Position numbers and translations under genes: made by a program. 64,000 nt of DNA, taken from the NCBI RefSeq assembly GCF_038967635.1, contig NZ_CP152413.1:3720001-3784000 (forward strand), read 5' to 3'. Source of the DNA: Bradyrhizobium sp. B124 (lineage in GTDB: Bacteria; Pseudomonadota; Alphaproteobacteria; Rhizobiales; Xanthobacteraceae). Below are positions 10,412-28,595 of the stretch, in pieces (the first letter of the stretch is position 1; the number at the start of each line of letters is the position of its first letter). Under the pieces are notes generated by a model, which saw only the letters and a program-made list of their open reading frames with translations, searched no databases and was not told the origin of the DNA.

Positions 10412-11611
10412 TTATCGAGCGGCGAAGGCCGGTGCTTCGGCGCGCTCGGCTTTCTTGTCGGAAGAAGCTCCCGCCGCGATCAGGCGATGGACGATCTCGG
10501 CAACGATCAGCGCGCCGACGTAGAGAACCATGCTGATCCATCCGATGCTTTGCGCACCGATCAACGTCAAGCTAGCGCCGCCGATGACACCTGCGGAAGC
10601 AACGCCGACGTAGGTGGCCGACGTATTGAGGCCGAGCACGATCGGGACAGCCGTTGGCATGATGGACACCAGCCGATGCTGCTGTGCCGCGAGTTGGCCC
10701 CAGCTTGTCGCGCCGTGGACTACGACGGCGACGATGGCCGTGGCGAGAGCGGCGCTGGTCCAGGACAGCGTCGCCGTGACCGCGATCAGTGCGACCGACA
10801 TGACGACCAGGACTTTTCGCGTGCCGATCGTATCGACCAGCCGGCCTCCGACGAGGTTCATCACGGTACCCGATACGCCCCACAGAACCAGCAGGAGGCC
10901 GAGGATCAGCGTATTGCCGTGCGTAACGCGCCCGAAGATGACCGCAAAATACGTGTAGAGGGCGAAGTTGCCGGCCTGGAAGAAGAACGTGGTGAGGAGC
11001 GTCAGCCCGATGCGGCGATCCGCGAACGGCGCCAGGCGCTGCTTCAGCGAGATCGACGGCGGCGTCGGGATGTCCTTCAGCGACACTGTGATGCCCAGAG
11101 CCGCGACGACGCTGATCGCCGAAACGAACACCATCGTCCAGCGCCAATCGGCAAGTCCGCCGATCAGCGTGCCGATCGGCGAACCGAGAGCGGTCGAGAA
11201 GGTGAGCCCGGCGATCACGATGGAGAGCGCGAAGCCCCGCTTTTCCGGCGGCATCAGGCTGGCGCCGGACCCGGTGGCGGTCGGCGCGTAGATGGCGGCT
11301 CCCAGCCCCGCGAGCGCGCGAGCGACCAGTGCGAAAGCGAAGTTAGGCGCCCAAGCGGTCGCAAGGTTGGCGAAAATGAAGATCCCAAGACCGGAGAGCA
11401 TCAGTTTCTTGCGCTCGACATGCGCGAAGACGGCCGCAGCCGTCGGCGACAGCAGCGCGTAGGCGATCGCATAGACGGTAGTGAGCTGCCCAGCGGCGCC
11501 CACGCTCACCTGGAAGGACTGCGATATCTCGGGCAGCACGCCCGCGACGACGAAACTATCGGTTCCGAGGGCGAACATGCCCAGCGCTAGAATTACAAGG
11601 CGGCGGTCCAT
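10412..11611 (-). CDS. MFS drug/metabolite exporter (DHA1, 12 TM)
   Basis: The 399-aa protein has the DHA1 pattern: TM1 with ALGTDSFVVAGVLPEIS (motif D2-like), then GAAGQLTTVYAIAYALLSP, an ARALAGLGAAIYAPTA stretch in TM4 and the exporter motif C region in TM5 (ALGSPIGTLIGGLADWRWTM). Twelve hydrophobic segments can be counted, so it lies in the inner membrane. Relatives of the AraJ/CmlA/NepI group export sugars, purines or drugs. It is divergent from a tetR gene (11875) with three 22-bp operators between them, which strongly suggests direct TetR control. The PEP-mutase-like gene follows. Confidence 0.9.
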   Translation of the reverse strand: MDRRLVILALGMFALGTDSFVVAGVLPEISQSFQVSVGAAGQLTTVYAIAYALLSPTAAAVFAHVERKKLMLSGLGIFIFANLATAWAPNFAFALVARALAGLGAAIYAPTATGSGASLMPPEKRGFALSIVIAGLTFSTALGSPIGTLIGGLADWRWTMVFVSAISVVAALGITVSLKDIPTPPSISLKQRLAPFADRRIGLTLLTTFFFQAGNFALYTYFAVIFGRVTHGNTLILGLLLVLWGVSGTVMNLVGGRLVDTIGTRKVLVVMSVALIAVTATLSWTSAALATAIVAVVVHGATSWGQLAAQQHRLVSIMPTAVPIVLGLNTSATYVGVASAGVIGGASLTLIGAQSIGWISMVLYVGALIVAEIVHRLIAAGASSDKKAERAEAPAFAAR

Positions 11612-11685
11612 GGCGAAGCTCCTGCGGGTTCGAGCGCCGGGATGCGGCGGGATCCAGATCGAGAAGGCCAGCGGCCGCCCGACTT

Positions 11686-11707
11686 ATCTATCTGGTGATA
11701 GATAGAT
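11686..11707. promoter_or_regulatory. TetR-type operator 1
   Basis: ATCTATCT-ggtgat-AGATAGAT: both half-sites are perfect inverse copies. It lies 75 bp upstream of the MFS start (11611). Confidence 0.75.
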
Positions 11708-11740
11708 TGCTTGTAATTCGCTCGCCGCGGTCCTGTCAAC

Positions 11741-11762
11741 ATCTATCTATCGATAGGCAGAT
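11741..11762. promoter_or_regulatory. TetR-type operator 2
   Basis: ATCTATCT-atcgat-AGGCAGAT matches the 22-bp consensus in 14 of 16 half-site bases. It is placed between operators 1 and 3 in the MFS/tetR divergent region. Confidence 0.7.
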
Positions 11763-11837
11763 AATTAATGATAGCTTCATTCTGCCCCGGCGCAGCCACG
11801 GGTTCCTGGAACCAAGCTTGCGATTCGGCCTCCATTG

Positions 11838-11859
11838 AGCTATCTATCGAAAGGTAGAC
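11838..11859. promoter_or_regulatory. TetR-type operator 3
   Basis: AGCTATCT-atcgaa-AGGTAGAC lies 15 bp upstream of the tetR ATG at 11875, just before its AGGAG site. This suggests autorepression. Confidence 0.7.
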
Positions 11860-11874
11860 GCAGGAGCGAGCCAC

Positions 11875-12399
11875 ATGAGCGACATGAAGACGGCGATCTT
11901 GGACGCGGCCGAAAAGCGGATTCAGGCAGGCGGATTCGGTGGATTCAGCTTTCGGGAGATCGCCGAGGACGTCGGCATCAAGAGCTCGAGCGTCCACTAC
12001 CACTTTCCCACGAAGGAAGACCTCGCTGCCGAGGTCGTCCGCCGTTGGGCCGATCGCACCTCCGGCAATATCGATAGGGAGTTCGCGAAAGACCCGAATC
12101 CGAAACGCGTCTGGGCCAAGGCGTTCCGCGGAACGGCGTTCTCGAAAGCCCACATGTGTCCGTGCACGATCCTCGGCGCGTCCTCGCAGGATCTGCCGAA
12201 GCCCGTCGCTGCCGAAGTGAAGCGGTTCTTCAAGATGTGCCAGGACAAGATGCTCGCCCAAGGCATGTCCGCGGACGACGCCAGCGAATTCCTGTCCACG
12301 ATTATCGGCGCGCTGGTCGTCGCGAACGCGCTGCGCGACAGCGGGGAGTACGATCGCGCGACTGCGACTTTTCGGGTCGAGGAAAAGACTGCGGCCTGA
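11875..12399 (+). CDS. TetR-family transcriptional repressor (copy 1)
   Basis: The 174-aa protein has an N-terminal helix-turn-helix (FSFREIAEDVGIKSSSVHYH, then FPTKEDL, residues about 22-50). The start at 11875 has AGGAG upstream. The ligand domain carries a cysteine-rich stretch (HMCPCTILGAS) and a second MC (KMCQDK). The Cys near residue 95 after a conserved FRG...F lies where thiol-sensing TetR proteins of the NemR group carry a reactive Cys, so electrophile sensing is possible but unproven. It is paralogous to the protein at 17464, with near-identical recognition helices (IKSSSVHYHFPTKE in both), so the two should bind the same operators. Its own operator lies 15 bp upstream. Confidence 0.9.
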   Translation: MSDMKTAILDAAEKRIQAGGFGGFSFREIAEDVGIKSSSVHYHFPTKEDLAAEVVRRWADRTSGNIDREFAKDPNPKRVWAKAFRGTAFSKAHMCPCTILGASSQDLPKPVAAEVKRFFKMCQDKMLAQGMSADDASEFLSTIIGALVVANALRDSGEYDRATATFRVEEKTAA

Positions 12400-12410
12400 C
12401 GTCCATCGGT

Positions 12411-12435
12411 CCGACGATCGTCTTGCGATCGTCGG
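12411..12435. terminator. Hairpin between convergent tetR and operon end
   Basis: CCGACGATCG-tcttg-CGATCGTCGG is a perfect 10-bp stem with a 5-base loop. It lies 12 bp after the tetR stop and before the end of the convergent operon (12553). It has no T-run, so it may terminate in both directions only weakly. Confidence 0.6.
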
Positions 12436-12552
12436 GTCTCGACGGTGACGACGCATAGGAAGCCTCCAGCGTGACGGGAAGGGGCGCCGATGCCGGTCGT
12501 GGCGGCGCTCGCGTGGTCGTTCGGCGGCGATCGATTGCCGCGCCTTCCGAAA

Positions 12553-12930
12553 TCACGATCCGGTCGGCCCTATGATGTTCGACAAGAAGGTCGCTCCATA
12601 TTGGTGGAGGATGGACCTCACACGATCGTCGGGGGCGCCGTAGACTGAAAAGCGTGACGGGCTACAGGCTTCCGCGAAGCGTTCGGAGAAGGCGCGACCG
12701 AAGTTGTCCGCGTGCGCGATCAGGCCGTCCGAATCTCTGTAGCGTTCGTAGATGTGACAAATCGATCGATCCGCGTTCAGCGAATATCGATATTCGACGG
12801 TGCCCGGTTCGTCTTCCATCGTCGCCATGAGATCGCGCGCGACGGAGACGAACTCTTCTGTCTTTCCCGGATTGATCTTGACCTCGTAGATCCAAAAGAT
12901 CTGCTCCGGAGGAGCAAACTTCTTGCTCAT
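12553..12930 (-). CDS. Quinol/antibiotic-biosynthesis monooxygenase domain protein
   Basis: The 125-aa protein has a single ABM ferredoxin-like domain: WIYEVKINPGKTEEFVSVAR, EDEPGTVEYRYSL, HIYERYRDSDGLIAH and FSERFAEA. Small proteins of this family (YgiN-like) oxidise quinols or polyketide-like aromatics without cofactor, or help remove reactive products. It is the last gene of the minus-strand operon that starts at 17049, and lies 24 bp after the oxidoreductase gene. AGGAG-like sequence precedes the start. The C-terminal about 20 residues extend beyond the domain. Confidence 0.85.
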   Translation of the reverse strand: MSKKFAPPEQIFWIYEVKINPGKTEEFVSVARDLMATMEDEPGTVEYRYSLNADRSICHIYERYRDSDGLIAHADNFGRAFSERFAEACSPSRFSVYGAPDDRVRSILHQYGATFLSNIIGPTGS

Positions 12931-12954
12931 TTCTTTTCTCCTTCGAAGAGGGAC

Positions 12955-13935
12955 TCAGCGGTTCGGACGAAAGATCACTTTTCCCCGAAGCTTCGAGGCA
13001 AGTGCGAGCGCCTCGACGTATTGATCGAGCCCGAACTCGCCGACGGTCGGCAACGCGATGGCGCCCGACGCGACGAGCGGCGCCAACTCCGCGTACATAC
13101 CCTCCAGCCTTTCCACGTTCCCGGGCACCTTGAGCCAGTTCATGATCCAGAAGCCGTGCAGCGATTGGCCGTTGAAGATGATCGGCACGTTGTTGATCGG
13201 AGACAGTTCGCCGCTCATGCCGCTCCAGATGACGAGTTTGCCGTAGAGGCCGAGGCGATCGAGCAGGCGCTGAGTCGTCGCGCCACCGACACCATCGAGC
13301 ACGAGCGGAAACTTCGATAGCCCTGTCGCCTTTGCGATGCGCGCTGGAAGATCCGGACTGTCGACTAGGACGACGTCGCCACCGAGCGCCTTCAGTTCGT
13401 CGACCAGTTCGGGGCGGCGGACCAGATTGACCGTACGATAGCCGCGCCCCTTGGCGATCGGGATGATCGCGCGGCCGACGGCCGAATTCGCAGCCGTCGA
13501 GATCAGCCAGTCGCCTGGCTTGAGCGTCACGAAGTCGGTCAGCAGCAGCAGCGCGGTCACCGGATTCATACCGAGCATCGAAAGCTGGTTGACGTCGCCG
13601 TCCGGAAGCGGTCGAAGCCCGGACGCATCCGTCTTCAATCTGGTGACCCAGGCTTTCCCGTTGATCGGAACCAGCGTGCGATCCCCGACCTTCAGATGCT
13701 TGACGTTTGGACCGACCGCCGCGACACGACCGACCCCCGTGCAGCCTACGAAGTGCGGCAACGGCGGTAATTCGCCGTAGATGCCGGCGATGATGTACTG
13801 GTCGGTCGGCTCGATCGGCGAAGCTTCCACGTCGATGATGATCTCGTTCGCTCCCGGAGGGGACGGGTCCGGAAGCTCGACGAGCTTCAGCACATCGGCG
13901 GGAGCTCCGTAGCCGGTAAGTTGAAGACCTTTCAT
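12955..13935 (-). CDS. Zinc-independent MDR alcohol dehydrogenase/quinone oxidoreductase-like protein
   Basis: The frame opens at 13998, but ATG 13935 follows a GAGGAG site and matches the family start (MKGLQLTGYGAPADVLKLVE). The 326 residues have the GroES-like N-domain (PIEPTDQYIIAGIYG, PHFVGCTGVGRVAAVG) and a Rossmann domain in which the usual AxGGVG is AANSAVGRAI. It lacks the Cys/His zinc ligands, as in NADPH:quinone or trans-2-enoyl-CoA reductases (MECR/Etr1-like), which the NSAVG motif resembles. Expected reaction: NAD(P)H-dependent reduction of an enone or quinone. It is in the middle of the TetR-controlled operon. Confidence 0.85.
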   Translation of the reverse strand: MKGLQLTGYGAPADVLKLVELPDPSPPGANEIIIDVEASPIEPTDQYIIAGIYGELPPLPHFVGCTGVGRVAAVGPNVKHLKVGDRTLVPINGKAWVTRLKTDASGLRPLPDGDVNQLSMLGMNPVTALLLLTDFVTLKPGDWLISTAANSAVGRAIIPIAKGRGYRTVNLVRRPELVDELKALGGDVVLVDSPDLPARIAKATGLSKFPLVLDGVGGATTQRLLDRLGLYGKLVIWSGMSGELSPINNVPIIFNGQSLHGFWIMNWLKVPGNVERLEGMYAELAPLVASGAIALPTVGEFGLDQYVEALALASKLRGKVIFRPNR

Positions 13936-14040
13936 GACAAATCTCCTCGCTGGGGATGCGTGCGAGAGACGGAACGTTGTCTCCCGCACCGGGATCAACA
14001 GGCCGTAGCGATACGAACACCGCCAGGCCTTGGCCGCCGC

Positions 14041-14541
14041 TTACTTGCTTAAGATCTGCGCATCGAAGGCAACGTCCTGGACGAGGACGACGGTGCAATT
14101 CTCCGAGAAGCACTCGGTGATATGGGGTTCACCGCCCTTCTGGAACCAATAGGATCCGGCACTCAGATGCTTGATCTCGCTGCCGGGGCGGTAGTTCGCC
14201 ATGACGCCGGAAATCACGACCGCGTAGTAATCGCCGGTGTGGGTGTGTAGCGCGCTCTTGAAGCCCTTCGGAAACTTGGTGATCGTGGCGTGAGGTCCCG
14301 AAGCCACCTTGCCGTAGGCGTCCGACACCATGATGTCCCTGTTGGAATGATCGTCGGGACGGCGGGGTCCGTAGGCGGCAAATCCAGAATCCGCGAAGGT
14401 CATATCTTCGAATGGGATTTCGAGCGAGTTGGTCGCCTCGGGCAGTTTCGCAGTCTGCTCGGAAGCCAAGGCAGGGGCGCTGAAAAGCGAGGTGGCAGTA
14501 GCGGCGACGACCAGCGCGTTTCGGATGAAAGTGTTTGTCAT
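14041..14541 (-). CDS. Exported cupin-domain protein
   Basis: The start at 14541 has AAGGAG upstream and gives a clear signal peptide (MTNTFIRNALVVAATATSLF, then SAPALA-SEQ), so the protein should be periplasmic. The mature about 143 residues hold one beta-barrel cupin: GPHATITKFPKGFKSALHTH (motif 1, with His-x-His), DYYAVVISGVM, and the motif 2 region SYWFQKGGEPHITECFSENC. The HxH pair, with a later His, could bind a metal as in ChrR-like and DUF4437 cupins. It is unusual in being exported while its operon partners are cytoplasmic enzymes. Function unknown. Confidence 0.8.
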   Translation of the reverse strand: MTNTFIRNALVVAATATSLFSAPALASEQTAKLPEATNSLEIPFEDMTFADSGFAAYGPRRPDDHSNRDIMVSDAYGKVASGPHATITKFPKGFKSALHTHTGDYYAVVISGVMANYRPGSEIKHLSAGSYWFQKGGEPHITECFSENCTVVLVQDVAFDAQILSK

Positions 14542-14662
14542 GACGGTATCTCCTTTGGGTGAGGGGCCGCAAAATTGCAGCCTGGCTCGGGTGGCAAGAG
14601 AGGCGGAAGCTGACGAGACAGTCCGAAGATGGGCTTGCGAGAAGCGATGCGTTCGCCGGGGA

Positions 14663-15373
14663 TCAATGGCCCGCAGTCCGACCTCCATCCACGTAGTGAA
14701 TCTCGCCGGTCACGTAGTCGGCATCCTCTAGATAGTTGATGGCCCGCACGACATCCTCGATCTTGCCGTTGCGGTTGAGCGGCGAGAAAGACTTCAGATC
14801 ATCCGGGTTCGATCCATCGTGAAGCGGCGTGATGACGATACCGAGCGAGATGGTGTTGACGCGGATGTTGCTGGAAGCGAGCTCCATCGCGAGTCCTCGC
14901 GTGGCGGCGACGCCGGCACCCTTCGTCAGCGAGGCGAGGACGGCCGGCACGGTCTGGAGCGCATGCTCAACGAGGCTCGTCGAGATCTGGACGATGTGAC
15001 CTCCGCCCTGCCTCTTCATAGCGGGCACCGCGGCCTGCGTTGCGAAGAACACGCTGTCGAGGTTGGTCGACATCACGCGTCGGTAGAGATCCTCGGAGAT
15101 GCCCTCGATCGGACCGGGACGCCATATGCCGGCGTTGTTGATCAGCGTGTCGACGCGGCCGAAGCGTTCGAGCGCGGTCCGGACGACTTTCCTGGCGATC
15201 TCCGGTTCGCCGACGTCGCCGGCGACGGTGACGTAGTCGGGGTCGCTCGAAGGCGCGATCGACCTTGAATTTCCGACCGCACGCCAACCTCGTTCCCGAT
15301 AGGCCTTCACGAAGGCCTCGCCGAGTCCCTGCGACGCGCCGGTCACCACGACGACTTTGCGTTCAGTTGCCAT
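14663..15373 (-). CDS. Short-chain dehydrogenase/reductase lacking the catalytic Tyr
   Basis: The 236-aa SDR has TGASQGLG (cofactor loop), NNAG and the Ser region QISTSL, and ends with ADYVTGEIHYVDGG. At the YxxxK site it reads ASLTK: the Lys is present but the Tyr position is Ala. The same pattern (LASLTKGGLNAAT) occurs, as I remember, in a branch of SDR proteins, so it may be a real subfamily with altered chemistry or a non-catalytic role. Its ATG is preceded by a weak AAGG-like site. It is a cytoplasmic member of the operon 17049 to 12553. Confidence 0.85.
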   Translation of the reverse strand: MATERKVVVVTGASQGLGEAFVKAYRERGWRAVGNSRSIAPSSDPDYVTVAGDVGEPEIARKVVRTALERFGRVDTLINNAGIWRPGPIEGISEDLYRRVMSTNLDSVFFATQAAVPAMKRQGGGHIVQISTSLVEHALQTVPAVLASLTKGAGVAATRGLAMELASSNIRVNTISLGIVITPLHDGSNPDDLKSFSPLNRNGKIEDVVRAINYLEDADYVTGEIHYVDGGRTAGH

Positions 15374-15438
15374 ATGTCACTTGCCTTGCTGTAGGGGCCC
15401 GCCGTGAGCGGGCGCTCTCGGATCCACCTCGAAAGTCG

Positions 15439-16308
15439 TCAAGCGACCTTCAGCTTCTTGAGCTGATCCAGACCGATGCCGGCGATCACCTGTTCCTGTA
15501 TCGGCTGGATTGCGGAGTTGGCCGCATCGGCGCCGAACGCCAGGCCGACGACCACGCGTTCGGGACGCTTGCCGCGGGGCGTCCCGACCAGCTTGGCGAT
15601 CGCTTCCGCCGTGTCGTGCGGATTCGGAGCGTCGGGGCCGGAGAACACGCCGCCGAGGAAATCGACGAGCTTGCCGGGAAGAGCGGCGACCTCGCCGTAC
15701 TTGTCGGCCCGACCGGGGTCGGAGGGCTTCTGAACCGCCGCCCACAGATTCGTCGGGAACGGACCAGGCTGCACCAGCACGACGTCGATTCCCAGTTGCG
15801 AAAGTTCGTATCGGTAGCCCTCGGTCAGGGCTTCCACGGCGTGCTTGGAGGCACCGTAGAGACCGTAGAAGGGCAGCGTCAGCCGGCCCAGGATCGAACC
15901 GACGTTGACGATCAGGCCGGATTTGTTCGCCTGCATCTGCGGCACGACCGCCCGGATCATGCGCTGGACGCCGAACACGTTCACCTCGAACATCTCGCGC
16001 ACCTGTTCCGGAGTGAAGGCCTCCGCGAGACCTCCCGAGGCGATGCCCGCGTTGTTGACGAGTACGTCCAGCCTGCCGTCGGTCTTGCCCAACAGCGTCT
16101 TCACGGCGGCATCGACGCTCGCGTTGTTCGTGACGTCGAGCTCAAGGGTCTCGATGCCCTTCGCCTGCAGTTCTTTCGCCACTTCGCGATTGCGCCCGTC
16201 CATATCCCGCATGGTCGCGAATACGCGATGACCACCGGCGGCCAACGTATTTGCGAGGTCTTTGCCGAAACCGTTCGACGTTCCGGTGATGAGGATGGTA
16301 TCAGACAT
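15439..16308 (-). CDS. Short-chain dehydrogenase/reductase (classical)
   Basis: The 289-aa SDR has a full set of motifs: TGTSNGFG, DVTN, NNAGIASGG, NVGSILG (Ser) and YGASK (Tyr and Lys). This oxidoreductase group is used for small alcohols and ketones, probably NADP-dependent given the ATMRD segment after strand 2. The C-terminus is longer than average. It lies second in the operon, 45 bp after the cysteine hydrolase gene. It is related to the SDR at 21445 (both begin MSDTILITG), suggesting an old duplication in the module. Confidence 0.9.
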   Translation of the reverse strand: MSDTILITGTSNGFGKDLANTLAAGGHRVFATMRDMDGRNREVAKELQAKGIETLELDVTNNASVDAAVKTLLGKTDGRLDVLVNNAGIASGGLAEAFTPEQVREMFEVNVFGVQRMIRAVVPQMQANKSGLIVNVGSILGRLTLPFYGLYGASKHAVEALTEGYRYELSQLGIDVVLVQPGPFPTNLWAAVQKPSDPGRADKYGEVAALPGKLVDFLGGVFSGPDAPNPHDTAEAIAKLVGTPRGKRPERVVVGLAFGADAANSAIQPIQEQVIAGIGLDQLKKLKVA

Positions 16309-16353
16309 GGTCGTTCTTTCTCTTCAGCTTTTCGATTTCGCAGGATTTCGGGA

Positions 16354-17049
16354 TCAGGCCGCGGCCTTCATGCGCTGCAGGGCTTCGTCGGTCGTCCAGA
16401 CCGCGTTCGCCATGAAGCGGTAGTTCACCATCGCCGCCGTGTAGCCGTCGCCTTCCTCGTTCACGCCGGCGGCCACCGCATCGCGGACCATCGCGACCTC
16501 GAAGCCCGCCTCGATGACGTCGCGCATGTGCGACTCCAGACAGATGTTCGCGACGGGACCCGCCATGATCACTTGTTCGACACGGCGCATGCGCAGCTGC
16601 TTGATCACGTCGTTCGACTCGCACCCGAAGACCTTGTGCGGCGACGTGTTGCAGGTGTGCCCGTCCAGCAGGTACTTCTTGAACGGTTCGTAGTAGTCCG
16701 CCCTCGAGCCCTTGAAGCCCTCGAGATCGACCGGGTCCTTGCGGCCGCAAAAGCCGATGCCGCCGAGATAGTGGCCGATCGCTCCGGGCGGCACTGTCCA
16801 CTGCAGGTCCGTCGGGTAGTACCAGTGCGGCGAGTGCACAATGAAGTAGCCGAGCTCCTGCGCGGTCTTGAGAAGCCTCTCCAGGTTGCCGACGACGTTG
16901 CGCTTCTTCAGCGCATCCTCGATCAGCGCGTAGTAGGTCCCCGACCCCTTCTCTTCGAGGAATTCATTCTGAATGTCGGCGAGGACGAGAGCGACGCGCC
17001 TCTTCTCGCCGAGCCTCATCTCCGGATTGCGATGGGTAAATTCGAGCAT
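16354..17049 (-). CDS. Isochorismatase-family cysteine hydrolase
   Basis: The start at 17049 (MLEFTHRN) is taken because GGAG lies six bases upstream; the frame is open to 17082. The 231 residues show the fold of the family: the catalytic Asp in VLADIQNEFLEE, a long insert with YYEPFKKY that may supply the Lys, and the nucleophile Cys in GPVANICLESHMRD preceded by the cis-peptide-like segment. It ends with MVRDAVAAG. Such enzymes hydrolyse C-N or ether bonds (nicotinamide, N-carbamoylsarcosine, biuret). This protein is longer than the simplest members. It is the first gene of the six-gene operon, with two operators (17086, 17129) upstream. Confidence 0.85.
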   Translation of the reverse strand: MLEFTHRNPEMRLGEKRRVALVLADIQNEFLEEKGSGTYYALIEDALKKRNVVGNLERLLKTAQELGYFIVHSPHWYYPTDLQWTVPPGAIGHYLGGIGFCGRKDPVDLEGFKGSRADYYEPFKKYLLDGHTCNTSPHKVFGCESNDVIKQLRMRRVEQVIMAGPVANICLESHMRDVIEAGFEVAMVRDAVAAGVNEEGDGYTAAMVNYRFMANAVWTTDEALQRMKAAA

Positions 17050-17085
17050 CTTCATCTCCGATGGGGGAAACCGGTGCGGCAATCC

Positions 17086-17107
17086 ATCTATCTATCAACA
17101 GGTAGGT
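17086..17107. promoter_or_regulatory. TetR-type operator 4
   Basis: ATCTATCT-atcaac-AGGTAGGT lies 36 bp upstream of the cysteine-hydrolase start, so it can block the operon promoter. Confidence 0.7.
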
Positions 17108-17128
17108 GTTTTTCACCGAGCGGTCAAC

Positions 17129-17150
17129 GGCTATCTACCGATAGAGAGTC
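17129..17150. promoter_or_regulatory. TetR-type operator 5
   Basis: GGCTATCT-accgat-AGAGAGTC keeps the CTATCT and AGAG cores. It starts 43 bp from operator 4, about four helical turns, so both lie on one face of the DNA. Confidence 0.6.
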
Positions 17151-17430
17151 GAAACTTGCGTGACGCAGGCGGGCTTACGTTTGGGCGCGGAGGCGAGGTT
17201 TTAATTCCGTCGCCACAGGAGCTTCTCCATTGTCTCCATTCGCCGCATCTTGGGAGCTGATTGAAACCGGAGAAGTCTCAGGGTTCTTGTCTCCCGGCGC
17301 CCGATTTGAACGACCAAACCGTTCCATGAACCGGGGAGTGACGGCGCCCCGGAGCGTGTTCTGATCGCCGGACTGCCGCGTCCCTATCGCTTGATAGACA
17401 AAAAGCTTGCGACGGGGCCTGGAACAATGT
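17151..17430. other. Intergenic between divergent operon and tetR copy 2
   Basis: No gene is seen. It should hold the promoter of the second tetR gene and possibly that of the operon. I could not fix -35/-10 boxes with confidence. Confidence 0.4.
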
Positions 17431-17452
17431 ATCTATCTATCGAAAGATAGAT
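17431..17452. promoter_or_regulatory. TetR-type operator 6 (perfect)
   Basis: ATCTATCT-atcgaa-AGATAGAT has both half-sites complete. It lies 11 bp before the ATG of tetR copy 2 (17464), abutting the GGGAG site, which suggests autorepression. Confidence 0.8.
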
Positions 17453-17463
17453 GGGAGTGTGCC

Positions 17464-17985
17464 ATGAGCAGCATCGCAGAGTCCATCTTGGACGCAGCCG
17501 AGCGTCGAATGCGCGGCGGCGGCTTCAACGGCTTCAGCTTCCGGGAAGTCGCGGACGATGTCGGCATCAAGAGTTCGAGCGTGCACTATCATTTCCCCAC
17601 GAAGGAGAAGCTCGCCGCAGCGGTCGTGCACAGATATGCCGACCGGCTAGGCGAGCGGATAGACAGAGAACTGGCGGGCGGCGTCGATCCCTACGACGTG
17701 CTGACGAACGCCTTCCGGGGCACCGTTCTCTCGGCCAATAGGATGTGTCCGGTAACGGTTCTTGGAGCCGGATCGCTGGGTCTGCCGGAAGAGGTCGCGG
17801 CGGAGGTAAGGCGCTTCTTCAGGATGTGCCTGGGCAAGCTGGTCGGCGCAGGACTCCTGCCGGACGAGGCGACCGAACTCCTTGCGATCATCACCGGCGG
17901 GATGGTCGTATCGGCGGCTTTGAACGACTCCACGACGTACGATCGAGCCACCGTGAAGTTGTGGCGGTCGCATCGGGCCATTTGA
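17464..17985 (+). CDS. TetR-family transcriptional repressor (copy 2)
   Basis: A frame opens at 17407, but ATG 17464 follows GGGAG and gives a start matching copy 1 (MSSIAESILDAAERRMRGGG). The 173 residues carry the same HTH as copy 1 (FSFREVADDVGIKSSSVHYH, then FPTKEKL) and a similar ligand domain, with Cys in RMCPVTVLGAG and RMCLGK. Copy 1 has two Cys in the first motif; here the second is Val, so the two proteins may sense differently while sharing operators. The C-terminus YDRATVKLWRSHRAI is close to copy 1 as well. It should bind the eight operators in this module. Confidence 0.9.
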   Translation: MSSIAESILDAAERRMRGGGFNGFSFREVADDVGIKSSSVHYHFPTKEKLAAAVVHRYADRLGERIDRELAGGVDPYDVLTNAFRGTVLSANRMCPVTVLGAGSLGLPEEVAAEVRRFFRMCLGKLVGAGLLPDEATELLAIITGGMVVSAALNDSTTYDRATVKLWRSHRAI

Positions 17986-18496
17986 AGCCCGACGTTCCTC
18001 GCCACCATCCCGCTGCGGGGCTACGGAGCGCGCATCGATCGCATCGCGCGCGATCCATGTCGTCGGCGAGAGCGGCCCTCCGAACGCGGATCGGCAGGAG
18101 TTCAATAGCCAATAGCTCCACGCGACGAAGGTCGCTCTGCGCCCGTTCCTGCCGACGACCGGTATCTTCATCGCAGCGGCCTCCACGACGCGCGGCCGAG
18201 TAGCGCAATTTACCTCTATGTCGTCATAGGTCCCCAGTCTTGGCCGCACACGTTCGCGGCCGCCGATCGTCCGGACTTGACGGACCGCGGTCTTGGCGAC
18301 GGTCGCAGCGGGAATGCATCCAACCGATTGTTTTCGTTCCCACATCCTTCATTGTCGTTTTTGTTTTGCAAAAACCCGTAAGAGGTCAAAAGGCTCGGAA
18401 TTCGTCGCTAGATCAGGTAGTTTGACACCATCGCGGAAGAGCCGGCGGCGTCTTAGCCGCCAGGCGGGTTTTACCGATTAGGTTGGATGACACGCG
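17986..18496. other. Intergenic, nothing recognised
   Basis: About 510 bp separate tetR copy 2 and the STAND regulator. Base composition drops toward A/T near 18330-18420, consistent with a promoter for the latter. No repeat of the 22-bp operator is present. Confidence 0.4.
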
Positions 18497-21247
18497 ATGC
18501 ATGGCGAAGATGATCAGCACCGCGATACCGAATGGGTCGGTTTCGGTCCATTCGTTTTGCATCTCAAGCAGCGCGTGCTCACCCAGAACGGAAAGCCGCT
18601 GCCCCTCAACACGCGCGCGGTCGAACTGCTCGCGGCACTGCTCGAGCGGCCCGGCTCCATCTGCACCAAGGACGAATTGCTGGAGCGTATCTGGCGCGAT
18701 CGCACAGTTGCCGAAGTGAACCTGCGCGTGACGGTGGCCGCCTTGCGCAAGTGCTTGGCGGAAGGCGGAACGAACGAAGCGTATGTCGTAAGCACGGCCG
18801 GGCATGGCTATGCCTTCTCGCGCGACGTTCATCTCGAATACTGGCCGCCGCGGCCGAGCGGGCGCGCGCCCGCTCCGGCCGGACCGCCGCGGGCAGTTCA
18901 CGGTCAACTACCGCTTCTGCTGAAGCCCGTCATCGGGCGCGAAGCGGCCGCTGCGAAGATCGTGGACCTGTTGGGCCGAAGCCGCTTGGTGAGCATCGTC
19001 GGCGCTGCGGGGATCGGAAAGACCACCGTCGCGATCGTCGTTTCCTCCGACGTCTCCGAAATCGCGGAACAGGTCTGCTTCGTCGACCTCGCGCCGATCC
19101 GCGACTCGAACCTCGTCCTGACCCGTATCGCATCGGGCCTCACCTTGGACCAGACCGGGGGCGATCCCCTCCGGACGATTCTCGAAAAGACCGCGGGAAA
19201 AAAGGTGCTGATCGTTCTGGACAATTGCGAGCACATGCTGGGATCGATCGCCGAGGCCGCGGCCGCAATTCTGCAGAACGTGCCCGGGGCAAGGATCCTC
19301 GCGACCACCCGTGAACCGTTGTACGTGGAAGGCGAAGTGGTCCATCGGCTCGAAGGTCTGCCTTATCCGGAAGTAAGTTTCGCCGGAAGCGCGGAGGAGG
19401 CCTTGCGCTACGCCGCCGTGGAGCTTCTCGTCGAGAGGATCCGATCGTCCGATCCGGATTTCATTTTGACGGACGAACTTGCGGCGCCGGCGGCCGAAAT
19501 CTGCCGTCGCCTCGACGGCATCGCACTGGCGGTGCAGCTTGCCGCCGGCAGGGTCGGGACCTTCGGTCTGCCGGAGGTGGCCTCGCGGCTCGACGATCGT
19601 TTCGCGTTTCTCAGTCGCGGTTTGCGGACGGCGCTTCCGAGGCATCAGACGCTCGAAGGTGCTATCAGCTGGAGTTTCGAACTGCTGGACGCGAACGAAC
19701 GAATCGTCTGCGCACGCCTCTCGACCTTCAGCGGAGAGTTCGACCTGGATTCGGCGATCGACGTGGCGGGATGGGCGCCCCTCTCTCCTCGGGAGGTATC
19801 TACCATCATCGCCGGTCTCGTCGAGAAGTCGCTCATCGTCTTCGTATCCGACCCGACCCGATCGCATTACGTGTTCCTGGAAACCATCCGCGCCTTCGCG
19901 CGAGAGCGGCTTCCCCTGATCGATCCGGACAACGTGCTGGTCAGGAAGTTGGGGCAGCGCCTCATCGCGGATTGCGACCGGTTCGGCGATCTGATCCGAT
20001 CGGGACACGTGGTCGAGGCGACAGCGTTCGCGAGGCGTCGCATGGACGATCTGCGGTATGCGATCGGCAAAGCGTTCGCGATGGGAGACACCGCGTTCCA
20101 GTCGTCGTTGCTGGTGAAGTTCGCTCCGTTGATGCTCCACTTGGGATACATGTTCGAGTTCACCGACTGGAGCCGGCGGACCCTCGATTCCCTGACCGGC
20201 GCAGCGGAGCGCCTCCCGCTTCTGATGCCGTACGCCCGCGCTTTGGGCCTTTCGCGCCCCGATCTCGCAGTACAGATCGCGCTGTATCGCGAGGCGGTCG
20301 AAATCGCCGAGACTCTCGGTGACACCGACAGCGAGTTGAAGGCGCGATGGGGCCTTTCCTATCTGTCGGGCCCCGGGTACAGCCCGGAGAAGTGTCTGGA
20401 GGCGGGCCGTGCCTTCCAGGATCGAGCGCGGGCTTTGGGCGACGTGTCGGCGGGCTTCGTCGCCCAGACGCTGCAAGGCTGGGCGCTTCACGATCTCGGC
20501 GAGTTCGGTGCTTCCATGGAAGCGCATCGACGCGTGGTCGATTCCTATCCGGCCGAGATGAGCGCTGCCGACGCCAACCGCTTCGGACTTATCCACCGAG
20601 CCGTCTCGATGTGCGATCTCAGCGAATGCTGCTGGCAAGTCGGACAATTGGACGAAGCCGAAGAATGGAATCGGAAAGCGATCGCGGAGGCCGGAGATCA
20701 TCTCCCGACGCTCTTCATTCCGCTGTCCCAGCTGTTCTGCAGAACGCTCTACGTCAGCTCTGACTGGGCCGACATCACCGGTCAATTCGAGGTACTGAGC
20801 GGACGCTTCAATGTGGGTGCGCGATGGAAGGGGTGGATCCGGAATCTCAAGGCGATCATCGAGATCCACCGCTACCGCACGGAATCCTCGCTCGCCGGAA
20901 TCGAGAGCGATCTGCTCGCCGGCGATTGGCAGACCTTGACCAATCGGAATAACTGGATCCTGGTGCCGGTCCTTCAAAGCTGCCTCATTCTCGGCAAGAC
21001 CGACCTGGTCGCGAATCTCGCCGGCAAGCTTGCCACCGAACTCGAAGCGATGCAGTGCCGGTGGTTCCTGCCGGAGGCCCTGCGGCTTAAAGCCGTCGCG
21101 CTCGCGCAACGGGATGACCCTGCCGCCGAGGCCTGCTTCGACGAAGCGCGCGCTTGGGCAGCGAAGCTCGGAGCATCCAGCTTCGCCCGGTACATCGAGG
21201 CCTCCTACAAGCAGTATCGGAACGGGCCCGTGCCGAAGGTTTCATAG
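18497..21247 (+). CDS. Winged-helix STAND ATPase transcription regulator
   Basis: The 916-aa protein has an OmpR/PhoB-type winged helix at residues about 12-110 (LNTRAVELLAALLERPGSIC, then VNLRVTVAALRKCL), and then a STAND NTPase: GREAAAAKIVDLL, Walker A VGAAGIGKTT (about 169-178), Walker B KVLIVLDNCEH (about 236-246), an ARILATTREPL sensor, and a winged-helix region around LDGIALAVQLAAG. The C-terminal about 400 residues look helical and TPR-like. It probably oligomerises on ligand binding and controls nearby genes, as in MalT-like or SARP/AfsR-like proteins. It is not preceded by the TetR operator. The next genes on the same strand are a degenerate SDR and an AraC regulator, possible targets or partners. 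Confidence 0.85.
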   Translation: MHGEDDQHRDTEWVGFGPFVLHLKQRVLTQNGKPLPLNTRAVELLAALLERPGSICTKDELLERIWRDRTVAEVNLRVTVAALRKCLAEGGTNEAYVVSTAGHGYAFSRDVHLEYWPPRPSGRAPAPAGPPRAVHGQLPLLLKPVIGREAAAAKIVDLLGRSRLVSIVGAAGIGKTTVAIVVSSDVSEIAEQVCFVDLAPIRDSNLVLTRIASGLTLDQTGGDPLRTILEKTAGKKVLIVLDNCEHMLGSIAEAAAAILQNVPGARILATTREPLYVEGEVVHRLEGLPYPEVSFAGSAEEALRYAAVELLVERIRSSDPDFILTDELAAPAAEICRRLDGIALAVQLAAGRVGTFGLPEVASRLDDRFAFLSRGLRTALPRHQTLEGAISWSFELLDANERIVCARLSTFSGEFDLDSAIDVAGWAPLSPREVSTIIAGLVEKSLIVFVSDPTRSHYVFLETIRAFARERLPLIDPDNVLVRKLGQRLIADCDRFGDLIRSGHVVEATAFARRRMDDLRYAIGKAFAMGDTAFQSSLLVKFAPLMLHLGYMFEFTDWSRRTLDSLTGAAERLPLLMPYARALGLSRPDLAVQIALYREAVEIAETLGDTDSELKARWGLSYLSGPGYSPEKCLEAGRAFQDRARALGDVSAGFVAQTLQGWALHDLGEFGASMEAHRRVVDSYPAEMSAADANRFGLIHRAVSMCDLSECCWQVGQLDEAEEWNRKAIAEAGDHLPTLFIPLSQLFCRTLYVSSDWADITGQFEVLSGRFNVGARWKGWIRNLKAIIEIHRYRTESSLAGIESDLLAGDWQTLTNRNNWILVPVLQSCLILGKTDLVANLAGKLATELEAMQCRWFLPEALRLKAVALAQRDDPAAEACFDEARAWAAKLGASSFARYIEASYKQYRNGPVPKVS

Positions 21248-21444
21248 CGGGCCCGCCCAGGTCTGCCTGTCGCCCAACGATCGAAAGTTGATCTAGACCC
21301 ACCGCTCCCGTATCTGGTGCGACCGCATCGAACGTCAAATTCGGATCGACCATCCAAGAACGCCGCCGGAACGGGGACGATATTGAGCCCCAAACCGACG
21401 CCGCCGCTCGCACGCGGCTGAGGACGGGACGAGGAAGACGGTCG

Positions 21445-22245
21445 ATGTCCGACACCATTCTCATCACCGGAGCGGAATCCGGCTTCGGGGAGGAGATCGC
21501 GTTCGGCCTGGCCGAATCCGGTCACGAGGTGATCGCTACCGCGCGTACGCAGGACGTGGCGGACGCGCTGCAGACGAAGGCCCGAACGCGGCGCATCACG
21601 CTCAAATCCCACAAACTGAACGTCCGCAACGCTACCGACATAGACGCTATCCTGCCGCTCGATTTCGGTATCCTTGTCAATAACATCGCTCGGGGCGAAG
21701 GCGGCCCGATCTCGGAAATTCCCTTGGAGATCCTGCACAGCCTTTTCGAGACCAACGTATTCGGGCCGCTCGCCTTGATCCAGAAGGTCGTGCGGAAGTG
21801 GGTCGCCGCCGGCACGCGCGGCAAGATCGTCTTCGTTTCCTCGGTCGCGAGTCTCGAGTTTCCCCCGGTTATCGCGCCTTTCGCTTCCGGCACGCATGCC
21901 TTGGAAGTGATCTCCCGCGCCCTTCATCACGAACTGAAGCCGTTCGGGATACAAGTACAGACGATCAACCCGGGACCGGCCGTCACCAGGTTCGACGAGG
22001 GAATGATCGCGAATGCCTTCGGTTGGCTCGACGACTCGAGAAACTTCACCAAGCAAGCCTCGCTGCGAGCTGAAGCGGATGCCATCGCGGATGCCGAAGC
22101 TCTCCAGGTCGATCCGGACCAGATGATCAGGCGAATGGTCGAGATCATTCCGGCGCGGACGGGACGCTACCGCAACGTCTATCCCGAAGAGATGCGAAAG
22201 CACGTCGAAATCGGCACGTCCGAGGCCTTCGATCTCGAAATATGA
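21445..22245 (+). CDS. SDR-fold protein without catalytic Tyr and Lys
   Basis: The 266-aa protein begins MSDTILITGAESGFGEEIAF, close to the SDR at 16308, and has a Rossmann fold with VNNIARGEG (NNAG altered to NNIA), a Ser-containing strand (FVSSVASLEF) and the loop NPGPAVTRF. The active-site YxxxK is FASGT: Tyr is Phe and Lys is Thr. It should therefore be unable to do standard SDR chemistry. It may be a regulator or binding protein using the NAD(P) fold, or a gene losing function while staying open. It lies between the STAND regulator and an AraC gene on the same strand. Confidence 0.8.
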   Translation: MSDTILITGAESGFGEEIAFGLAESGHEVIATARTQDVADALQTKARTRRITLKSHKLNVRNATDIDAILPLDFGILVNNIARGEGGPISEIPLEILHSLFETNVFGPLALIQKVVRKWVAAGTRGKIVFVSSVASLEFPPVIAPFASGTHALEVISRALHHELKPFGIQVQTINPGPAVTRFDEGMIANAFGWLDDSRNFTKQASLRAEADAIADAEALQVDPDQMIRRMVEIIPARTGRYRNVYPEEMRKHVEIGTSEAFDLEI

Positions 22246-22288
22246 CGCTCGCCATCGCCGCCGCCCTCGGCGCGATAACGACAAATAA

Positions 22289-22304
22289 CGAGCGTTAACG
22301 CTCG
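22289..22304. repeat. 16-bp perfect palindrome CGAGCGTTAACGCTCG
   Basis: It lies 43 bp after the SDR stop and 64 bp before the AraC start. It may be a terminator stem or an operator. It shows no likeness to the TetR operator. Confidence 0.45.
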
Positions 22305-22368
22305 AAAACTCGCCTTGCGCCGGCAAAGGAGCATCTTGGGCCCGCAACCGTTATTCGAGAGGTTGGGG

Positions 22369-22971
22369 ATGTCCGTCTCGCTTGCCGCTATTCAATCCAG
22401 CGAACGGACGAAGCAAGCCGCTGCGGCCGTCCTGCTCGAAGAAGCCTTGAAGCTCCTGGACCGCGACCTGCCGGGAGCCCGGCAACGGATCGAGGACGCC
22501 CGCAGGCTCGTCGCCAATCCAAGGCAAAGCTGCGGCAAGAACGGTCATCTCGCCGATTGGCAGATCCTGCGCGCCCGGAAGTACATCGGCGAGAACCTGC
22601 ACGCGCGCATACGGATCGGGACGGTGGCCCGCATAGTCAACCTCAGCCCGAGCTACTTCTCGCGAGCCTTCAAGACGAGTGAAGGAGTGCCGTTTTCCGA
22701 TTTCGTCCTGATGTCGAGAATCGGCTTGGCTAAGCAGCTTCTGGCCACGACGCACCGGTCCATCGCCCAGATCGCCCTGGAATGCGGCTTGGCCGACCAG
22801 TCCCACCTCACGCGGATCTTCAACCGGTTCGTCGGCGTGCCGCCGCGAGCCTGGCGATGCCGCAGCGTCGCGGACGCCGGTAGACGAGCACGCGGAGCCG
22901 GCGCCAACCCGGCGGACGGGATCGGGTGGCCGGACATGCGAAGTCCTGCCCCGAACCATCAAACGGGTTGA
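22369..22971 (+). CDS. AraC-family transcription regulator (short)
   Basis: The frame opens at 22315, but ATG 22369 (MSVSLAAIQSSERTKQAA) has a GAGAGG-like site. The 200-residue protein has a short N-terminal helical part without the usual cupin sensor, and then a two-HTH AraC domain: RIGTVARIVNLSPSYFSRAF, VPFSDFVLMSRIGLAKQLL and SIAQIALECGLADQSHLTRI, then FNRFVGVPP. The first N-terminal about 60 residues are Ala/Leu/Arg-rich. It is likely an activator or repressor of the module. It lies on the + strand, 62 bp before the first of the two operators ahead of the RND pump. Confidence 0.85.
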   Translation: MSVSLAAIQSSERTKQAAAAVLLEEALKLLDRDLPGARQRIEDARRLVANPRQSCGKNGHLADWQILRARKYIGENLHARIRIGTVARIVNLSPSYFSRAFKTSEGVPFSDFVLMSRIGLAKQLLATTHRSIAQIALECGLADQSHLTRIFNRFVGVPPRAWRCRSVADAGRRARGAGANPADGIGWPDMRSPAPNHQTG

Positions 22972-23032
22972 AATCCTCGCCTTAAAAAGAAAACGAACAT
23001 GAAATCATATGGTTGGCGTAGCATCACATTTT

Positions 23033-23054
23033 TTCTGTCTACCGATAGATAGAC
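23033..23054. promoter_or_regulatory. TetR-type operator 7
   Basis: TTCTGTCT-accgat-AGATAGAC lies 67 bp upstream of the RND adaptor start. It shares its 6-bp centre with operator 5. Confidence 0.65.
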
Positions 23055-23085
23055 GTTGACAGGACTGGGTGCCTCGAGTACCTTT

Positions 23086-23107
23086 GTGCATCTACTGATA
23101 GATAGAT
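23086..23107. promoter_or_regulatory. TetR-type operator 8
   Basis: GTGCATCT-actgat-AGATAGAT has the right half perfect and the left half conserved only in its inner ATCT. It lies 13 bp before the adaptor ATG. Confidence 0.6.
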
Positions 23108-23120
23108 AACGGAGATCGTT

Positions 23121-24317
23121 ATGACCCAAGTCGCCGCCAGCCATTCTTTCCGCAGAGCCAGCATCAAGGTCTGGCTCACCACAGCCGCTGCACTGGGCAT
23201 TTTCGGCGCCGGCGTCGTCTTCGGGCCCGGATTGTTGGCTCCATCGGCCAAGGCGGCCGCGCCGACCGCCCCGACTGTGACCGTCAGCACGCCCGCCGAA
23301 CGCGACGTCGAGAAGCGGCTGCAGCTGCTGGGCCAGTTCTCGGCGGTGCAGCAGGTCGAGCTTCGCCCTCAGGTCGGCGGCACGCTGACGAAGATCAGCT
23401 TCAAGGATGGCGACATCGTCCGCGAAGGCGATGTCCTGTTCGAGATCGACCCGACCCCCTATCAGATCAAGCTGGACGAGGCCAAGGCACAGGTCGAGAC
23501 GGCTCGCGCCCAGCTCGAATTGGCCATTCAGCAACTGGGCCGTGCCGATACATTGAAGCAGAGCGGCTTCGGAACGGTCGAGAATGCCGACCAGCGGCTG
23601 GCCCAAAAGCGCGCGGCGCAGGCCTCTCTCGATGATGCGCAGGCCGCGGTGCGCGACGCGCAGTTCGATCTGGATCATACCCGCGTGACGGCGCCCTTCA
23701 CCGGACGCATCGGCACGCACCTCGTCTCGATCGGCAACCTGGTCGCCGGCAGCCGGGCCGCCACCAGCCCGACCACCTTGCTCGCGACGCTGGTTTCGGT
23801 CGACAACATCTATCTGAACTTCGACCTGAGCGAGTCGGACTACGCGACCTTCCAGCAGGCGCACCTGCAGCAGCAGGGACCCCTGGCCGACAAGGTCCAG
23901 GTTTCCATCAACGGCGGCAGTTTCGATCGCAACGGTACGCTGGACTTCATCGACAATGCGCTCGACCGCTCGAGCGGCACGATCCACGGACGCGCGACGA
24001 TCAAGAACACCGATGGCCTGCTGACTCCTGGCGCATTCGCAAGGGTTCGCATCGCGATCTCGAAGGCGGTCCCCACGCTCCTCGTTCCGGACGCGTCGGT
24101 TCTGCCGGACCAGTCCGAACACGTCGTCCTGACCGTCGGTGCGGACGGCACCGTCAAGCCGAAGAAGGTCGAGCTCGGCGATCTGCGGGACGGGCTTCGC
24201 GTGATCACCTCCGGCCTGACCTCATCCGACCGCGTCGTCGTTGCCGGCATTCCGATTGCCAAGCCCGGCGCGAAGGTTATCGCCGAGAACGCCTCGAAGC
24301 AGCTTGCTTCCGACTGA
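23121..24317 (+). CDS. RND efflux periplasmic adaptor (MFP/HlyD type)
   Basis: The 398-aa protein has an N-terminal signal/anchor (residues about 15-45, VWLTTAAALGIFGAGVVFGP), then the biotinyl-lipoyl half (ELRPQVGGTLTKISFKDGDI), a helical hairpin (ETARAQLELAIQQLGRADTL, AQAAVRDAQFDLDHTRVTAP) and a beta-barrel ending with SSDRVVVAGIPIAKPGAKV. It links an inner-membrane RND permease (24675) with an outer-membrane channel; no channel gene is in the window. It is preceded by two TetR operators, so repressed together with the MFS pump. A GGAG-like site lies upstream of its ATG. Confidence 0.95.
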   Translation: MTQVAASHSFRRASIKVWLTTAAALGIFGAGVVFGPGLLAPSAKAAAPTAPTVTVSTPAERDVEKRLQLLGQFSAVQQVELRPQVGGTLTKISFKDGDIVREGDVLFEIDPTPYQIKLDEAKAQVETARAQLELAIQQLGRADTLKQSGFGTVENADQRLAQKRAAQASLDDAQAAVRDAQFDLDHTRVTAPFTGRIGTHLVSIGNLVAGSRAATSPTTLLATLVSVDNIYLNFDLSESDYATFQQAHLQQQGPLADKVQVSINGGSFDRNGTLDFIDNALDRSSGTIHGRATIKNTDGLLTPGAFARVRIAISKAVPTLLVPDASVLPDQSEHVVLTVGADGTVKPKKVELGDLRDGLRVITSGLTSSDRVVVAGIPIAKPGAKVIAENASKQLASD

Positions 24318-24328
24318 GGGGGACCGAC

Positions 24329-24594: not shown

Positions 24595-24674
24595 CTCCGC
24601 CGGATCCTGAGTTCGTTCATTCGTCGCTTCCGTTCGTCGACGCAATCTCATTCTGCTGACAAGGCTGAATCGCC

Positions 24675-27857: not shown

Positions 27858-27871
27858 CAAAATGGTCCGCC

Positions 27872-27917: not shown

Positions 27918-28595
27918 ATGTTCTCAGTGATCTTCGAAGTTCATCCCAAATCGGACCAGTGGGATGGCTATCTCGGCGTCGCTAAGATGCTCCGGCCGGA
28001 GTTGGAGCAGGTCGACGGCTTCATCGAGAACGTCCGCTACAAGAGCCTCACGCGGCCGGGCTGGCTCTTGTCGCTCTCCGGATGGCGGGACGAGAAATCC
28101 GTCGTGCGGTGGCGGACCGCGCAGCGGCATCATATCGCTCAAGAAAGGGGACGGTCTGAGATCCTGCGCGATTATCATCTTCGGGTCGGTGAGATCACGC
28201 GGGACACCCAGGTGCCGACCGGCCACACGATCGCCGAGCAACGTCTCGACGAAACAGAAGTGGGAGAAGGCACGACGGTGACTTTCATCGACGCCAAATG
28301 GCCGAGCGGCATCGTCGGACCGCCGGACGAGCCGGCGATTGCCGATCACCTCGGCCTGAATCCCGAGGCCGCCGGCTTGCTGAAGTGGGAGGTCTTCGAT
28401 GCCGTCCTCACGCCTGGCGATGTTATCCTGATGATGGTGTGGAAGGCGAAAGACGATGCCACCGCGTTCTCGGCGTCGGTCAAGCTCCCGCCAGGCGCGC
28501 GTTTGCGGCAGGTCCGCGTAGTGCGGGACTACGGCATGTTCGATCGCAGGGAAGCTCCCCAATACTATCCGGAAGCCTCCCGACACGATGCATGA
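27918..28595 (+). CDS. ABM-domain monooxygenase-like protein (225 aa)
   Basis: The N-terminal half is a ferredoxin-like ABM domain (MFSVIFEVHPKSDQWDGYLG, then DGFIENVRYKSLTRPGWLLS) and shows the HHIAQERGR helix typical of the family with its conserved His. The C-terminal half (residues about 115-215, with DAVLTPGDVILMMVWKAKDD) reads like a second, diverged domain, so the protein is a tandem of two halves. GGAGG lies eight bases before the ATG. Single-domain relatives act on quinols and aromatics. It lies downstream of the pump and may be transcribed with it. The operon at 12553 codes another ABM protein. Confidence 0.85.
   Translation: MFSVIFEVHPKSDQWDGYLGVAKMLRPELEQVDGFIENVRYKSLTRPGWLLSLSGWRDEKSVVRWRTAQRHHIAQERGRSEILRDYHLRVGEITRDTQVPTGHTIAEQRLDETEVGEGTTVTFIDAKWPSGIVGPPDEPAIADHLGLNPEAAGLLKWEVFDAVLTPGDVILMMVWKAKDDATAFSASVKLPPGARLRQVRVVRDYGMFDRREAPQYYPEASRHDA

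Follow-up and report, generated by a model that had tools for sequence, protein, structure and literature searches.

The 64,000-nucleotide stretch of the Bradyrhizobium sp. B124 genome analysed here (contig NZ_CP152413.1, positions 3,720,001 to 3,784,000; hereafter the window) carries eight copies of one palindromic site in front of the genes encoding two TetR-family regulators (TetR1 and TetR2), an MFS pump, a six-gene enzyme operon and an RND pump operon. The sites probably serve a regulon in which NemR-like TetR repressors act as thiol switches and respond to reactive electrophiles that may come from plants. The host is probably a soil bacterium. This reading draws on the near-exclusive occurrence of the sites at one cluster of the genome, on the conservation of the same operator beside related regulators, on an invariant cysteine in these regulators and on the genes that follow the operator.

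Operator sites in the cluster and in the genome

The original prediction had placed eight 22-mers of the pattern ATCTATCT-N6-AGATAGAT in the cluster, solely before the MFS gene, both tetR genes, the six-gene operon and the RND pump. All eight sites were found, this distribution was borne out, and by the gene calls made here every site is intergenic, in a region where intergenic sequence makes up 2625 of 19605 bp. The sites, listed without strand, are the following:

O1, 11686..11707: MFS side of the divergent region between the MFS gene and tetR1, 74 nt upstream of the MFS start codon
O2, 11741..11762: overlaps a weak sigma-70-like match (11736-11765)
O3, 11838..11859: 15 nt upstream of the tetR1 start
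O4, 17086..17107: upstream of the six-gene operon
O5, 17129..17150: site with the weakest arms (leave-one-out score 18.3 bits)
O6, 17431..17452: 11 nt upstream of the tetR2 start
O7, 23033..23054: upstream of the RND operon
O8, 23086..23107: 13 nt upstream of the adaptor start codon

A search of the window with the 16 arm bases, allowing up to three mismatches, returned 10 matches, comprising seven of the eight sites (17129 was missed) and three shifted overlaps, where 0.07 were expected by chance and none of 100 shuffles reached 10. Perfect arms are present in two sites only (11686 and 17431), and in O5 the outer bases are degenerate while the core is clear (CTATCTACCGATAGAGAG, one mismatch to the 18-mer searched for below). 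The 22-mers stand, but the 8+6+8 geometry by which they had been described understates the motif, as its N6 spacer is not free: with the eight sites stacked in both orientations, the spacer columns hold 0.94-1.30 bits and the arm columns 0.80-2.00. Since the spacer is conserved, the operator reads through as one uninterrupted palindrome, CTATCTAYCGATAGATAG, whose flanks are weaker, rather than as 8+N6+8. Consensus promoters between 9000 and 28900 were not above chance (2 found, 3.5 expected), and an Rfam scan of the window gave no match at the gathering cut-off.

The genome was searched as one contig of 9,169,800 bp, using patterns with mismatches and not a matrix scan. The 22-mer with up to three mismatches occurred at 14 places (reversed control, 2), of which 10 are in the cluster, including three shifts, and four lie outside, each with three mismatches; matrix scores are 18-38 bits for the cluster sites (leave-one-out) versus 1-11 bits for these four. 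Similarly, the 18-mer with up to three mismatches was found at nine places, namely the eight cluster sites and one other with three mismatches (reversed control, 1-2). Searching with a degenerate motif for the whole family, and tolerating one mismatch at most, gave eight places, seven in the cluster and one at 2978730, about 100 bp upstream of a third regulator of the same TetR family. Site 23086 has two mismatches to this motif, the level where noise starts: at up to two mismatches 17 places were found versus 24 for a reversed control not split by mismatch number, and the signal is lost. The family profile identified exactly three regulators in the genome at E 1e-12 or better, and all eight places with at most one mismatch adjoin these three, so that equally good matches are not spread over the genome. 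With TetR1 alone as query (E 1e-6) a fourth match appeared, covering only 58 residues of the DNA-binding part.

The third regulator (L007, genome 2977371-2980730) is a protein of 195 aa with a CxC motif and has its own operator pair, with ACCTACC-type arms, at 1358 and 1449 of that locus. Cross-talk between this regulator and the window cluster is possible.

The operator and its predicted target genes in other bacteria

Relatives of the regulators were collected by a family-alignment scan of a species-genome collection, which confirmed 517; the best 80 of 517 were kept and represent 79 distinct loci, mostly of Alpha- and Gammaproteobacteria, at 36-94% identity. The 250 bp upstream of each regulator were scanned with a matrix built from the eight window sites alone, and column-shuffled matrices with the palindrome preserved served as controls (n = 395). 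A site was present upstream of the regulator in 67 of the 79 loci at 14 bits or more, in 57 at 18 bits and in 46 at 22 bits, as compared to 1, 0 and 0 of the 395 controls, which at the level of sequence argues that the operator belongs to this TetR subfamily. Outside the upstream zone, 99 matches (overlapping shifts included) were found in 1.39 Mb versus a mean of 2.4 in all per shuffled matrix. This conservation beside the regulator in other orders and classes, together with the co-localisation in the genome, lends strong support to a local TetR regulon that uses a single operator.

The arrangement of the sites is also recurrent. Of the 45 loci whose regulator match begins at the first residue, 34 have their nearest site (15 bits or more) ending 7-18 nt upstream of the start codon, eight have it farther off and three have none; a repressor bound at such a position would block initiation. 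Neighbouring sites are spaced 50-65 bp apart in 57 of 67 pairs, which probably reflects a separate copy for each of two divergent genes. At least two family members lie within the fetched stretch in 8 of the 79 loci, and in seven of these, all but L052, two or more of the copies each possess a site scoring at least 15 bits.

To count as a target, an open reading frame (ORF) had to start within 350 nt of a site of at least 15 bits; Pfam was run on mostly one representative per cluster, and singletons without a Pfam match were left out. Short-chain dehydrogenases (SDRs) stand behind the operator in 34 of the 79 loci, counted by hand as a cluster of 37 sources minus the window and loci L042 and L043 (wrong-frame ORFs), the SDR fragment of L050 not being included. 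Further targets are glutathione S-transferases (GST; 10 loci), glyoxalase-like proteins (10), ABM proteins (6), cupins (5), RND adaptors (5, with an AcrB-type gene additionally in L051), MFS proteins (5; L042, L043, L052, L096 and L112), isochorismatases (4), phosphoenolpyruvate (PEP) mutases (4), DJ-1/PfpI proteins (3), glycosylases of the uracil-DNA glycosylase (UDG) superfamily (2, Mug-type in our reading), the O6-methylguanine methyltransferase Ogt (2) and DUF7002 proteins (2). A class-III aminotransferase, a LuxR protein, a ketopantoate reductase, an alpha/beta hydrolase and a luciferase-like monooxygenase were each found once, and an HhH-GPD gene in L059, which starts 336 nt from a site, was counted as weak.

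Homologues of the window genes themselves (40% identity, half coverage) were scored for an operator upstream. All six loci with a homologue of the long ABM protein have one (the window protein is 50% identical to that of L049), which provides an independent link of the RND operon to the regulon. The same was seen for the isochorismatase in 4/4 loci, the MFS protein in 2/2 and the adaptor in 4/6, and for the RND transporter in 0/4, as expected for a second gene.

The operators before the DNA-base repair genes (UDG-superfamily glycosylase and Ogt) are located at 1465-1544 and 3516-3537 of L046, 8381-8453 of L047 and 9564-9585 of L054. The DUF7002 proteins are encoded at 3641-4300 of L046 and 8467-9057 of L051, the latter with a faint, sub-threshold match to DarT. 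In L053 (Rhizobium multihospitium), a LuxR-type gene whose product has an autoinducer-binding domain is preceded, at a distance of about 158 nt, by a good operator (11295-11316).

Regulators, genes and proposed mechanism of the regulon

Both regulators contain the TetR_N domain PF00440 (46.6 and 42.1 bits against a Pfam cut-off of 24), and the predicted structure of TetR1 (pLDDT 92) has an all-helical TetR fold whose top fold matches are TetR structures. TetR1 and TetR2 are 60% identical over 163 residues, with a nearly identical DNA-reading stretch (FSFREIAEDVGIKSSSVHYHFPTK versus FSFREVADDVGIKSSSVHYHFPTK). Cys95 is present in 53 of 53 aligned family sequences, down to 36% identity, and its column is that of the sensor cysteine of Escherichia coli NemR, which we take to be Cys106. 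Cys97 is present in 51 of the 53, TetR2 being one of the two exceptions. In a tree of 32 copies, TetR1 falls in a starred clade of seven (Rhodospirillales, Rhizobiales and Reyranella records) and TetR2 in a starred clade of four Bradyrhizobium copies, and by this separation the duplication of tetR1 and tetR2 looks old; the forks between the two clades are weaker (90/71 and 87/84). The two nearest named loci belong to Bradyrhizobium (TetR1 identity 92 and 94%), and a plasmid search with TetR1 gave 91 records, all below 60% identity.

The genes of the cluster are as follows:

10412..11611, minus strand: MFS exporter (MFS_1; best NCBIfam match Cmx/CmrA-like, below its cut-off)
11875..12399, plus strand: TetR1, 174 aa, with Cys95 and Cys97
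12553..12930, minus strand: small ABM-domain protein, last gene of the six-gene operon
12955..13935, minus strand: medium-chain dehydrogenase/reductase (MDR; ADH_N, ADH_zinc_N), quinone-reductase-like in our reading
14041..14544, minus strand: cupin protein with a signal-peptide-like N-terminus, start picked by eye at MTNTF
14663..15373, minus strand: SDR
15439..16308, minus strand: SDR
16354..17049, minus strand: isochorismatase-family hydrolase, first gene of the six-gene operon; the start could be 17055
17464..17985, plus strand: TetR2, 173 aa, Cys95 kept, Val97
23121..24317, plus strand: RND periplasmic adaptor (RND_mfp above cut-off; nearest equivalog MexE, below its cut-off)
24675..27857, plus strand: RND transporter (ACR_tran)
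27918..28595, plus strand: long ABM-domain protein, end of the RND operon

A gap of 357 bp (24318-24674) separates the adaptor gene from the transporter gene of the RND pump. The stretch downstream of the latter (27858-30017) holds a second MFS gene besides the ABM protein, and among ORFs of at least 150 aa up to 34000 no gene for an outer-membrane factor was seen to follow. Inside the cluster, a regulatory protein (18497-21247), an SDR at 21445 and an AraC gene at 22315 have no site. The protein at 18497-21247 is a large regulator with a Trans_reg_C domain and weak NB-ARC/TPR matches, and in L054 (19034) a Trans_reg_C protein stands behind an operator.

In the best-supported model, TetR1 and TetR2 would bind the eight sites as dimers near the start codons and hold down expression of their own genes as well as of the MFS pump, the six-gene enzyme operon and the RND operon. 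Modification of the invariant Cys95 by a reactive electrophile (a quinone, an unsaturated carbonyl or similar, perhaps of plant origin) would then make the repressors leave the DNA, and export and reduction or conjugation of the compound would be induced together. Many of the targets, namely reductases, conjugation enzymes, DJ-1, ABM proteins, efflux pumps and alkyl-base repair enzymes, point to reactive electrophiles. The proposal that one signal molecule controls both its chemical change and its export is only partly supported; the enzymes and the NemR-type cysteine would fit electrophile stress better, and more than one signal may be involved where two different repressors share an operator. 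Likewise, of the "efflux and catabolic" genes originally proposed, the catabolic half is the weaker, as the enzymes weighed here (the isochorismatase-like hydrolase, the SDRs, the MDR, the ABM monooxygenase-type proteins and the cupin) would suit a stress response over the use of one growth substrate.

Several observations weigh against this electrophile regulon. Twelve of the 79 loci have no 14-bit site upstream of the regulator, and the close relatives L044 and L052 (copy at 10001) lack an upstream site of 15 bits, that of L052 scoring 13.4. Sixty genomes of the genus were surveyed for the strict 18-mer (up to two mismatches), which occurred in 10. Seven of these are the genomes whose regulator matches are best, an eighth is G022 (10th by E-value), and the remaining two, which lack a regulator match, contain a single two-mismatch match each. 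The reversed pattern matched 8 of the 60, and therefore the bare count is not evidence; the co-localisation does speak for the regulon, the sites in the eight genomes with operator and regulator lying within about 3 kb of a regulator. The strict operator is missing from 13 of the 21 genus genomes with a regulator match (E 1e-15), including G004 and G049, whose regulator match is better than that of the operator-bearing G022; a matrix scan of 30 genus loci, run without a shuffled control, gave a match of at least 12 bits in 24. As for the targets, most names rest on one scanned representative per cluster, the glyoxalase Pfam match falls below its cut-off, and the class-III aminotransferase, LuxR protein, ketopantoate reductase, PEP mutase and alpha/beta hydrolase do not look like detoxification genes. 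Old-yellow-enzyme and glyoxalase domains were absent from the window genes scanned, which cover part of the window. The second cysteine is missing in TetR2, and TetR1 is a distant relative of NemR and not a NemR, because a direct BLASTP comparison was not significant (E 0.68, 19%), a distant profile match being the only one. The palindrome upstream of nemR, TAGACCGACTGGTCTA, presumably the NemR box, differs from CTATCTAYCGATAGATAG in the cluster. Finally, binding, repression, thiol sensing, the nature of the inducer and the detoxification function are the parts of this reading that we infer.

Among the alternatives, it is hardly credible that the sites are functionless sequence that arose by chance or is microsatellite-like, of the (ATCT)n/(GATA)n type. 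An internal period of 4 bases in the motif speaks for this view and accounts for the shifted three-mismatch matches, but the shuffles, the intergenic position of all sites and the conservation next to homologues from other orders, where shuffled matrices gave almost no matches, speak against it. We consider it rather unlikely, though overlapping with our preferred explanation, that only one TetR reads the sites of the pumps and enzymes while the other controls itself or another function. The separate supported clades of the two regulators and the lack of Cys97 in TetR2 would agree with such a division, whereas the nearly identical DNA-reading stretches and the presence of a same-type site 11-15 nt before the start of each tetR gene would not.

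Somewhat less likely still is a regulon of the same operator in which the inducer is a non-covalent ligand, such as a flavonoid or other plant phenolic, and the cysteine is structural. Such ligands have been reported for related systems: BjG30 of Bradyrhizobium japonicum, an RND pump with two TetR genes, is induced by genistein (PMC4070704), and AefR of Pseudomonas fluorescens senses flavonoids and represses mexEF-oprN (PMC11915855); moreover, the nearest equivalog of the window adaptor is MexE. On the other hand, the cysteine does not vary across the 53 sequences, and the GST, DJ-1, UDG and Ogt targets in relatives suit reactive chemicals better.

A TetR-operator regulon for efflux and detoxification is of a known kind. 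What appears new, in the literature searched, is that one operator is kept across a broad TetR subfamily and that 8 of the 79 loci hold two diverged paralogues close together, and the most interesting feature is that two divergent repressors would share one operator. More tentatively, and with doubt on our part, Proteobacteria could possess a widespread chemical-defence regulon whose operator stands before pumps, detoxification enzymes and, in relatives, DNA-base repair genes (Ogt and Mug-type UDG). This one operator would be read by a pair of thiol-switch TetR paralogues that have diverged and differ in their cysteines (CxC and CxV here), and the resulting two-sensor gate would tie genome repair, along with export and detoxification, to a single class of reactive molecules. 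If the electrophile regulon is correct, knowing the operator would make it possible to tell from sequence alone which genes a large TetR subfamily controls, in bacteria ranging from rhizobia to marine Gammaproteobacteria, multidrug efflux pumps of plant-associated bacteria would be tied to reactive plant chemicals and not to antibiotics, and the system would offer a tractable case of paralogous repressors sharing an operator over long evolutionary times. A switch found beside relatives of the repressor in many bacteria points to an uncharacterised chemical-stress response.

Comparison with known regulators

Judged by titles and abstract starts, no recognisable description of this operator was present among the open-access matches listed, no title among the matches listed for the motif string concerned a TetR operator, and no functional account of the TetR subfamily was found in the literature searched. 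The nearest solved structures to TetR1, by profile and by fold, are 2g7s (Agrobacterium) and 3on4 (Legionella); both have a cysteine aligned with Cys95 and are named only as TetR-family regulators, and no title among the listed papers naming them concerns their function. A link with AcuR and dimethylsulfoniopropionate was dropped, as 3bru, which we take to be AcuR, is only a distant fold match to TetR1.

NemR of E. coli (nemRA-gloA, PDB 4yze) resembles the present regulators in being a TetR repressor with local control of detoxifying enzymes and a sensor cysteine aligned with Cys95, and the TetR1 model matches its fold with a TM score of 0.82 by query length. It differs in sequence, with about 15% identity in the fold match, and in its neighbours, which are nemA and gloA, whereas the cluster has pumps and an SDR/ABM/isochorismatase operon.

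BjG30 and FrrA-FreCAB share with the cluster a Bradyrhizobium RND pump adjoining TetR genes, two in the case of BjG30, but are set apart by genistein induction and polyhydroxybutyrate-gene neighbours, the likeness being one of description. XdpR, the TetR regulator of an OYE-SDR operon (OYE, old yellow enzyme), has a predicted box, TCATGA-N6-TCATGA, unlike the cluster operator (PMC5891007). DitR of Stenotrophomonas maltophilia is, like the regulators proposed here, a TetR repressor of MFS genes with a cysteine-based release, being freed by cysteine oxidation; in contrast, its operator is CATAC-N5-GTATG and it needs both Cys92 and Cys127 (PMC9342713). AltR of Pantoea ananatis is a TetR regulator of thiosulfinate tolerance with a 22-bp box, CAATCTAC-N6-GTAGATTG, several inverted repeats in one cluster and a Cys100 essential for thiosulfinate sensing (PMC13178969). 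The AltR half-sites are 4 bp closer (CTAC-N6-GTAG compared to CTAY-N10-RTAG in the cluster) so that the box is not matched, and one regulator is described, compared here by description and not by the AltR sequence. Nevertheless, a 22-bp inverted repeat with an N6 spacer, several boxes per cluster and a key cysteine are common to both, and AltR shows for thiosulfinates the same logic that we propose for reactive electrophiles in Bradyrhizobium sp. B124.

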